Shown here piece after piece: positions 26,831 to 28,290 of a stretch of 60,856 nucleotides of DNA (position 1 is its first letter; every line of letters starts with the position of its first letter). The stretch lies in contig MFNO01000004.1 of assembly GCA_001782075.1 (NCBI GenBank), forward strand, positions 1-60,856. The letters run 5' to 3'. Under the pieces are notes generated by a model. That model searched no databases, was not told the DNA's origin, and was given only the letters and a program-made list of their open reading frames with translations. Source of the DNA: Candidatus Levybacteria bacterium RIFCSPHIGHO2_01_FULL_38_26 (GTDB lineage: Bacteria; Patescibacteriota; Microgenomatia; Levybacterales; UBA12049). Both the position numbers and the translations under genes were made by a program.

Positions 26831-27076
26831 CTAAATCTTCAATCTTAAAATATCTATTTTGTTTTGCCTGCTCCAGTTTTTAATTTGTGACTCGCGTTTT
26901 AATGCCGCTGATTTTGATTCAAGCTGTTCGGTATGCAAAAGTTTTACAGGCTTGTGAGAACGGGTATATCTTCCGCCTTTGCCGTTTTTATGGTCGATAA
27001 ATCTAACTTTAGGATTGCTTGACGACCCTGTATAAAGACTGCCGTCGGAACAGAGGAGAATATAAACAAACCACAT
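26831..27076 (-). CDS. GIY-YIG nuclease superfamily protein (YhbQ/UPF0213-like)
   Basis: 81 residues, one compact GIY-YIG domain: WFVYILLCSDGSLYTGSS (the VYIL...LYTG pair), then R in NPKVRFIDH, a GKGGRYTR loop and the helix SKSAALKRESQIKNWSRQNKI with the catalytic Glu. Small stand-alone versions are probable structure-specific or repair nucleases, not established homing enzymes. It lies just downstream of the intron-split tRNA on the same strand, separated by a palindromic repeat. Confidence 0.88.
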   Translation of the reverse strand: MWFVYILLCSDGSLYTGSSSNPKVRFIDHKNGKGGRYTRSHKPVKLLHTEQLESKSAALKRESQIKNWSRQNKIDILRLKI

Positions 27077-27082
27077 ATTTAA

Positions 27083-27155
27083 GTCCTTCGACTTGGCTTC
27101 GGTAAACTCAGCCTCCCTCAGGACACTTCTCCTTTGCTTCGCGCAGTCGAAGTGT
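27083..27155. repeat. Palindromic repeat (family C-like) after the split tRNA
   Basis: Outer arms CCTTCGACTTGG and CGCAGTCGAAG and an inner CTCAGCCTCCCTCAGGAC segment resemble the 'CTTCGACAAGCTCAGG' type of dispersed repeat found inside ruvC and the DNA ligase gene. It follows directly on the tRNA 3' end (minus strand). Confidence 0.6.
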
Positions 27156-27417
27156 TGCGGGGCTGGTATCGAAACCAGACTATGAGATTATGCATTTGTT
27201 TCTCCAATTACTTGGAGTGTCGGACTATATCTTCTCCGATGTTACATCGGAGCTCAGCGTGTAGTCTCTACGGTGTCCCCGATTAAATCGAGGTTCCCTC
27301 GGTATTGTCCTTCGCGACATCTCAGGAGTTCACCGATATAGCTGAGTACTATTCTCAATATTTCTATCAAGATGGCCCATTTTGTTAAGCCTCATGTGCG
27401 CCTTACACTACCCCGCG
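27156..27417 (-). tRNA. tRNA-Met(CAU), initiator-like, split by a group I intron
   Basis: Exons 27388-27417 and 27156-27193. Spliced RNA: acceptor CGCGGGG/CCCCGCA with a C1xA72 mismatch, the hallmark of bacterial initiator tRNA; D arm GTGT/GCAC; anticodon stem TGAGG/TCTCA with loop CTCATAA, anticodon CAU. The T arm CTGGT/ACCAG closes a six-base TTCGAT loop, one short of normal. The anticodon stem lacks the three G-C pairs typical of initiators, and pair 11-24 is pyrimidine-purine as in elongators, so the initiator identity is likely but not certain. CCA is not encoded. A promoter lies upstream (27428-27456). Confidence 0.88.
27194..27387 (-). ncRNA. Group I self-splicing intron (194 nt) in the tRNA anticodon loop
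   Basis: The intron interrupts the tRNA between U33 and C34. Group I hallmarks: 5' exon ends in U, pairing as U.G with the internal guide GGCC (P1, exon GGCU); last intron base is G. P3 is CGGTG/CACCG, P5 GTC/GAC, a P6 hairpin CGAT-TTA-ATCG, P7 GACTA/TAGTC within AGAGACTACACG and AAGATATAGTCC, P8 CTCCGATG-TAA-CATCGGAG, and P9 CTCCAA-GTAA-TTGGAG. P2 is GATAG...CTAT. No ORF is inside. All core helices are present, so it is probably active. Confidence 0.93.
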
Positions 27418-27427
27418 CGTAATTTAC

Positions 27428-27456
27428 ATACTAACAAAAACACTCTCATTAGTCAA
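27428..27456 (-). promoter_or_regulatory. Promoter of the split tRNA
   Basis: On the minus strand: -35 TTGACT (27451-27456), 17-bp spacer, -10 TAGTAT (27428-27433), 10 nt before the mature tRNA 5' end. Confidence 0.75.
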
Positions 27457-27529: not shown

Positions 27530-28213
27530 ATGGCTAAATCATTACTTAGGCTAGAGGCTCGTAAGCTACGTAAAAAAGGACTGAGTGTTAAAAGAATTGC
27601 TCAATATCTAAAAATTGCCAAGAGCTCAGCAAGCATCTGGACTAGAGATATTATTTTAACTGTAGAACAACTAGAGAATCTAAGAAAATCGAGCTTAGAA
27701 GGCGCAGAACGCGGACGCATCAAAAATGCCTTGCTTCAGAAAGAAAGATGGAAAAGAAAGATGGAAACTTTCAAGAAATCAGGAATAAAGAGTATAGGAA
27801 AATTAACTGATAGGGAATTTCTGATTGCGGGACTTGCTCTGTATTGGGGTGAGGGATACAAAAAAGGAAGAAGACTCCAGTTATGCAATTCAGATCCAAA
27901 AATGATAAAATTTTTGCTACTTTGGTTACAACGATGTTTTTCTATAAGTAGCTTGGACATACGATGTCGAGTAGGAATAAATTACATACATATTAAGAGG
28001 GAAAATATTGTTAAGGAATACTGGTCAAGAATTACAAGTGTTCCCCTAGCCCAATTCACAAGAACAAGCTTTAAGAAAGTAGAAAATAAGAAGCTATATG
28101 ATAATTTTAATGATCATTATGGTACGCTGTCAGTCGAGATTGTACAGCCTTCCCGCTTTTATGGTAAAATCATAGGACTTATTGACGGTTTACATGCAAA
28201 TATGCCAGGGTAG
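27530..28213 (+). CDS. HTH protein with LAGLIDADG-like motif (possible free-standing homing endonuclease)
   Basis: 227 residues. An N-terminal helix-turn-helix (~8-45, ARKLRKKGLSVKRIAQYL, then IAKSSASIW) is followed by a basic linker and a domain with FLIAGLALYWGEGYKKG, which resembles the G-L-x-x-x-E-G core of LAGLIDADG endonucleases, and CNSDPKMIKFLLLWL. A second IIGLIDG-like stretch is near the C-terminus. The last three codons and stop (ATG CCA GGG TAG) run into the first bases of the downstream tRNA. It lies between two CAU tRNA genes, one with a group I intron lacking its own ORF. A homing role is inference; a transcription factor with a LAGLIDADG-derived domain (WhiA-like) is an alternative. 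Confidence 0.7.
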   Translation: MAKSLLRLEARKLRKKGLSVKRIAQYLKIAKSSASIWTRDIILTVEQLENLRKSSLEGAERGRIKNALLQKERWKRKMETFKKSGIKSIGKLTDREFLIAGLALYWGEGYKKGRRLQLCNSDPKMIKFLLLWLQRCFSISSLDIRCRVGINYIHIKRENIVKEYWSRITSVPLAQFTRTSFKKVENKKLYDNFNDHYGTLSVEIVQPSRFYGKIIGLIDGLHANMPG

Positions 28214-28276
28214 CTCAGTGGTAGTAGCAACAGTATCATAAACTGTAGGTCGTGGGTTCGATCCCCACCCCTGGTA
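28204..28276 (+). tRNA. tRNA with CAU anticodon (elongator Met or Ile2)
   Basis: Cloverleaf: acceptor GCCAGGG/CCCTGGT (G1.U72), D arm GCT/AGC with one extra loop base, anticodon arm ACAGT-ATCATAA-ACTGT, variable AGGTC, T arm GTGGG-TTCGATC-CCCAC, discriminator A. CCA is not encoded. Normal 1-72 pairing makes it an elongator. Met and lysidine-modified Ile cannot be told apart with certainty. Its 5' end overlaps the stop of the upstream gene by 10 bases. Confidence 0.92.
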
Positions 28277-28290
28277 CAAAAGAAATTAAA

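Follow-up and report, generated by a model that had tools for sequence, protein, structure and literature searches.

A Levybacteria genome whose only detectable initiator tRNA gene is split by an ORF-less group I intron, with a divergent HTH-LAGLIDADG-like gene beside it: a candidate two-part homing system

How does a cell start its proteins when its initiator tRNA gene is cut in two directly before the anticodon, and how does an intron with no reading frame of its own come to lie there? Both questions are raised by a locus in the window, i.e. the whole stretch of 60,856 nucleotides analysed here, in which an initial annotation made from the letters alone had read an initiator-like CAU tRNA split by a group I intron. 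In agreement with this reading, the Rfam search suggested with it matched Intron_gpI (RF00028) at 27201-27397 of the minus strand over the full length of the model (68.6 bits, E 2.5e-15; the gathering score of RF00028 is 50 bits). Exon 1 of tRNA-fMet (27388..27417, minus strand) holds the 5' strand of the acceptor stem, the D arm, the 5' strand of the anticodon stem, C32 and U33, and exon 2 (27155..27192, minus strand) runs from the anticodon CAU through the T arm with its six-base loop to the 3' strand of the acceptor stem, ending in discriminator A; CCA is not encoded. Between them lies the intron (27193..27387, minus strand), which contains no ORF and terminates in G. In intron-less relatives, three of the same family (G017, G004 and G021) and one of the same class (G034), the DNA is continuous across the junction, with query positions 1-33 joining query 229 onward directly. 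As these relatives run through the junction without a gap, the insertion point is fixed precisely as U33|C34, immediately 5' of the anticodon in line with the initial placement, and the intron is 195 nt long and not 194 nt as first counted. Once 27193-27387 is removed, the exons form the expected tRNA: ARAGORN calls tRNA-Met(cat) of 69 nt in the spliced sequence and no tRNA at the locus in the unspliced gene.

Free folding of the precursor recovered P1, P2, P3, P4, P5, P6, P8 and P9 together with the acceptor, D and T stems of the tRNA, at an energy of -88.9 kcal/mol that none of 200 shuffled sequences equalled (z -5.2). P7 was taken from the Rfam alignment. The 5' strand of P7, GACUA of the guanosine-binding core (27262..27266, minus strand, pairing with 27223-27227), shows no variation in the 64 distinct intron-bearing relatives that make up our alignment. 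The internal guide AUGGGCC (27374..27380, minus strand) matches the anticodon loop of tRNA-fMet by complementarity: it forms P1 with GGCU of exon 1, where a U33.G wobble marks the splice site, and P10 with CAU of exon 2. Both the U33.G pair with the guide and the terminal G of the intron, which the initial annotation had pointed out, are present in 64 of 64 relatives. Across these relatives the intron helices are paired in 92.2% of cells and 30 of their 49 pairs are changed on both sides, a level reached in 0 of 500 shuffles, with covariation in P2, P3, P4, P5, P8 and P9. The exon stems, whose acceptor and anticodon strands flank the intron on either side, hold standard pairs in 96.4% of cells, and 12 of 21 pairs are changed on both sides (again 0 of 500 shuffles). 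Given that the exon helices are paired and covary, the tRNA is under selection in intron-bearing genomes, and given that exons and intron helices alike covary, the split gene is being maintained. The arrangement suggests splicing by ordinary two-step group I chemistry, in which a guanosine bound in P7 would attack the U33.G wobble in P1 and, in the second step, the 3'-OH of exon 1 would attack after the terminal G, the guide holding GGCU|CAU together by P1 and then by P10. Upstream of the gene, a consensus scan gave a promoter-like TTGACT-17-TAGTAT (27428..27456, minus strand) that ends 10 nt before tRNA-fMet, at a score not above chance; a TATAAT-like box stands at a similar position in most family members. 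Short CTTCGAC-type repeats recur at fMet 3' flanks (L048, L066) and, in genome G016, inside an intron loop (L049).

The spliced tRNA was examined for features of an initiator. Initiator tRNA-fMet has no Watson-Crick pair at 1-72, and the C1xA72 mismatch on which the initial annotation had relied is indeed present, together with the CAU anticodon; among the relatives, position 1/72 is C/A in 47 of 64 and U-A in 17 of 64. Textbook initiators also have G-C pairs at three successive positions of the anticodon stem (29-41, 30-40, 31-39). The stem in the window, A29-U41, G30-C40 and G31.U39, lacks them and is invariant in 64 of 64 aligned relatives, a departure from the canonical bacterial initiator type that has a parallel in some mycoplasmas. 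Since this feature fails throughout the lineage, intron-less intact genes included, its absence is compatible with initiator identity. The D loop, whose shortness is likewise characteristic of the lineage, has five bases and lacks the usual GG; because intron-less intact genes show both the short D loop and the A-U/G-C/G.U anticodon stem, neither is a sign of decay. The six-base T loop marks a sub-clade (G000, G015, G016, G017, G127, G136 and G326) of intron-bearing and intron-less genomes with compensatory stem changes. Thus the two oddities listed at first for this tRNA, a T loop of six bases and a weak anticodon stem, are real but are traits of a sub-clade and of the wider lineage, respectively. 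The formylation pathway is represented by fmt (TIGR00460) on contig C32 (205 bits with the neighbouring frame). The C-terminus of ribosomal protein uS9 (L253, G000:C22) reads ...KKQSPKR, a tail that may matter for accepting an initiator without three G-C pairs.

The genome (1.13 Mb in 38 contigs, 98.5% complete) yielded 44 tRNA matches above the Rfam cut-off. The initial annotation had asked whether another fMet gene exists in it: none does by the Rfam tRNA model, ARAGORN and pattern searches, and the only other CAU tRNA is an elongator tRNA-Met (28204..28277, plus strand), whose end pair is G1.U72. As a control, the Rfam tRNA model detected reduced intron-less initiators of the family at 6 of 8 control loci, with 39-47 bits, so that the same model would in all likelihood have picked up an intact copy; at 98.5% completeness in 38 contigs, a second initiator could be missing from the assembly. 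No CAU tRNA-Ile2 was identified in the genome, and therefore only two CAU tRNAs remain; AUA is decoded by tRNA-Ile(UAU) (L004, G000:C10:4689-4760). A tRNA-like fragment of 24 bits without acceptor stem, either a partial duplicate or a degenerate tRNA, directly follows tRNA-Val(CAC) (G000:C37:25243-25300, L046). Elsewhere in the genome, the search for group I introns returned only a sub-threshold match of 18 bits (G000:C30:19163-19278, L032).

Presence and absence across the class Microgenomatia were scored by exact-match patterns; roughly one genome in three fits neither pattern, and because the patterns are exact the counts are lower bounds. Most genome-wide pattern matches are due to chance, and only those with exon 1 and the guide upstream were kept. 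The intron in tRNA-fMet is found in 61 of 374 genomes and the intact-fMet pattern in 195 of 374. Both patterns occur only in G007 and G378, whose intact-pattern matches are clearly not tRNA, leaving a detectable intact copy in 0 of 61 intron-bearing genomes (Fisher 1e-22). In a phylum-wide draw the intron pattern was present in 8 of 380 genomes, all of them Microgenomatia; a Parcubacteria contig (L099) also has an fMet intron. That the split gene is a decaying relic, initiation being left to the elongator or to an initiator missing from the assembly, is very improbable: the reduced tRNA (five-base D loop without GG, six-base T loop, AU/GC/GU anticodon stem), the 38 contigs and a G1.U72 elongator end that might tolerate formylation would fit it, but the intron-less orthologues are equally reduced and yet intact genes, the stems formed by the two exons show covariation, and an intact copy is seen in none of the 61 genomes. 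We are therefore highly confident that the locus is the only detectable initiator tRNA gene of this genome and that it is interrupted at U33|C34 by an ORF-less group I intron of self-splicing type. Judged from sequence, the intron is presumably active in splicing and the split initiator presumably essential.

Next to this gene the window holds a second element. Members of the host family have their fMet gene head to head with the elongator tRNA-Met gene, as a rule with 56-180 nt between them; the corresponding space in the window, between the two CAU tRNA genes, is occupied by a 227-aa gene (27530..28213, plus strand) that starts 112 nt from the fMet gene, upstream and divergent, and whose UAG stop codon is formed by positions 8-10 of the elongator tRNA-Met. 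Its product has an N-terminal helix-turn-helix and a C-terminal LAGLIDADG-like domain, making it a candidate homing endonuclease. All hits of a first tblastn scan had their matched start at 86-137 nt from the tRNA. A first count within the host family found the gene in 12 of 17 intron-bearing and in 1 of 21 intron-less genomes. With upstream DNA from other families added and a profile search, it was found upstream and divergent at 34 of 66 intron-bearing and at 1 of 64 intron-less non-redundant fMet loci (Fisher 9e-12). These loci are related and were picked by exact patterns, with controls mainly from the same families. Stratification by family left a strong association (Mantel-Haenszel OR 77, p 5e-9), a test that covers family structure and not relatedness within families. 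The one exception, the intron-less genome G013 (L069), carries an intact copy, and several copies look broken (L209, L255, L284). Upstream of intron-bearing loci without the ORF we saw a mixture of genes and no second recurring gene family. In the window itself, a single-domain GIY-YIG gene of 81 aa (26831-27076, minus strand; PF01541, 8.5e-20) lies about 80 nt downstream of tRNA-fMet on the same strand; in L199, another GIY-YIG-like ORF, different from this one, is located upstream of an fMet gene with the intron.

Shared ancestry or co-inherited flanking DNA might produce such an association with no functional link between gene and intron, all the more as the genomes are related, the loci are not independent, and distances measured on the ORF, the intron and the exons are correlated with one another. 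We consider this unlikely, since the association is visible separately in families f1 (13/20 vs 1/21), f2, f5, f10, f15 and f25, the same geometry of gene and tRNA recurs on the Parcubacteria contig L099, and the asymmetry, a gene almost never found where the intron is missing, is as expected if a cut site is being protected. The agreement between ORF and intron distances is only weak (Mantel r 0.23; partial r 0.09 with the exons controlled for). As little of it goes beyond ancestry, strict co-transmission of ORF and intron as a unit is not claimed. Both this weak congruence and the exception in G013 indicate that the gene has probably been replaced at the locus independently of the intron.

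What the neighbouring protein does was approached through its two domains. The N-terminal helix-turn-helix is seen as weak matches to Pfam HTH_23 and related models in most members. A profile of the C-terminal domain built from 30 homologues had as its nine best PDB matches entries of I-DmoI only (E 0.006-0.1). Glutamate E108 of the motif YWxEG, kept in all 30 aligned domains, aligns with the catalytic E117 of I-DmoI, and the profile match to the E117A entry is weaker by 3.8 bits. Pfam gave no LAGLIDADG match to the protein. An AlphaFold model of the domain reached pLDDT 91.7, and a Foldseek search with it returned no match at E<=0.001; among the matches shown, I-DmoI had the highest probability (0.96) and was not first by E-value. 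Because these matches are not significant, Foldseek was discarded as proof of a LAGLIDADG fold. We consider the protein likely, though not proven, to be a LAGLIDADG-type enzyme, and its assignment as an endonuclease is made with moderate confidence. The gene could instead encode a transcription regulator resembling WhiA, or a maturase that assists splicing. A helix-turn-helix in a divergent gene at a distance of about 90-140 nt from the tRNA promoter suits a regulator, association with the intron suits a maturase, and LAGLIDADG proteins can act as maturases; against either role, half of the intron-bearing loci do without the gene, the three copies named above look broken, the glutamate aligned with I-DmoI E117 is invariant in the 30 domains, and different subtypes replacing each other at one spot are typical of selfish genes. 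We thus regard this possibility as doubtful, though a little less so than an association by ancestry.

A homing endonuclease would offer an account of how the intron moves. According to this proposal, the free-standing HTH-LAGLIDADG-like enzyme would cut intron-less fMet alleles and thereby let the intron spread, the intron would protect the donor's own site and so shield the essential tRNA from the enzyme, and after fixation of the intron the enzyme gene would decay, leaving ORF-less introns alone. A gene almost never present without the intron and an intron often present without the gene are as collaborative homing predicts, and if the homing reading is true, the enzyme gene would almost never persist without the intron because the intron shields tRNA-fMet. 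Against it stand the 32 of 66 intron loci without the gene, the intact gene in intron-less G013, the weak agreement of ORF and intron distances, and a LAGLIDADG match at E about 0.006 with nothing significant in Foldseek. Taken together, we judge the chances to be evenly balanced that many Patescibacteria harbour a two-part chromosomal homing system, composed of ORF-less introns in the sole initiator gene and a separate divergent HTH-LAGLIDADG endonuclease gene about 110 bp upstream.

Whatever the means of spread, every protein of this minimal-genome cell would depend on ribozyme splicing of the sole initiator tRNA, and annotation tools miss initiators split in this way. If the homing reading is true, the linked gene explains in a testable way how introns without an ORF pass from one host to another, and collaborative homing extends from phages to bacterial chromosomes and to tRNA genes. 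With at least two unrelated endonuclease types at one site, a PD-(D/E)XK type inside the intron and a LAGLIDADG-like type outside it, tRNA-fMet would also be a natural setting in which to study how composite mobile introns arise.

By comparison of sequences, the window intron is a member of a family seated in the anticodon loop of tRNA-fMet in Patescibacteria, Omnitrophota and cyanobacteria. The same insertion site and guide target were found in a cyanobacterium (L261), in Omnitrophica (L140 and L131) and in the Parcubacteria contig L099; for the cyanobacterial tRNA-fMet introns, which the initial annotation had mentioned, the U33|C34 site is thereby confirmed in one genome. It is on account of this shared site and of its kin in cyanobacteria and Omnitrophica that we call the window intron a new member of a known family. 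The introns of L261 and L140 carry mutually similar ORFs of the PD-(D/E)XK I-Ssp6803I type, whereas the window intron, at 195 nt, has none. The Omnitrophica ORF (L140:1329-1865) matches Pfam PDDEXK_5 at E 2.5e-43 and PDB 2OST at E 1.9e-47, the latter being I-Ssp6803I, the endonuclease of the Synechocystis tRNA-fMet intron. A preprint by Nakagawa et al. is said to treat the same kind of element in the same phylum and may cover U33|C34 of tRNA-fMet. Group I introns in tRNA-fMet are known from cyanobacteria (PMC4033280), among them Synechocystis PCC 6803 and Gloeobacter (Biniszkiewicz 1994 and Paquin 1997, as cited in PMC8450103), and fMet or Ile2 genes were missed in 36 genomes owing to group I introns (PMC8450103). 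The Synechocystis intron is 655 nt long and contains an endonuclease ORF (PMC1995217); unlike this intron-encoded enzyme, the gene in the window is a different, LAGLIDADG-like one that lies outside the tRNA. Hence the kind of intron and its site are already known, and the association of a gene with the intron next to the split fMet appears to be the new part.

For the protein, the closest solved structure by profile is I-DmoI (PDB 1B24, 2VS7), whose E117 region aligns with the YWxEG motif; the similarity is weak (E about 0.006), and the window protein has an N-terminal helix-turn-helix. For the arrangement, the nearest precedent is the collaborative homing of F-CphI and the psbA intron in cyanophage S-PM2, in which the allele that lacks the intron is cut by an endonuclease with a free-standing gene, and the donor is protected by its own intron (PMC6083498; reviewed in PMC3984707). 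Among the literature found, an ORF-less intron paired with a free-standing homing endonuclease has been described only from phages. The window resembles S-PM2 in that a free-standing gene lies next to a group I intron without an ORF, cleavage by the window protein being our proposal. The two differ in their setting: S-PM2 is a phage with a protein-coding host gene and an Endo VII-type enzyme, whereas the window presents a chromosomal locus, a tRNA host gene and an HTH-LAGLIDADG-like protein.
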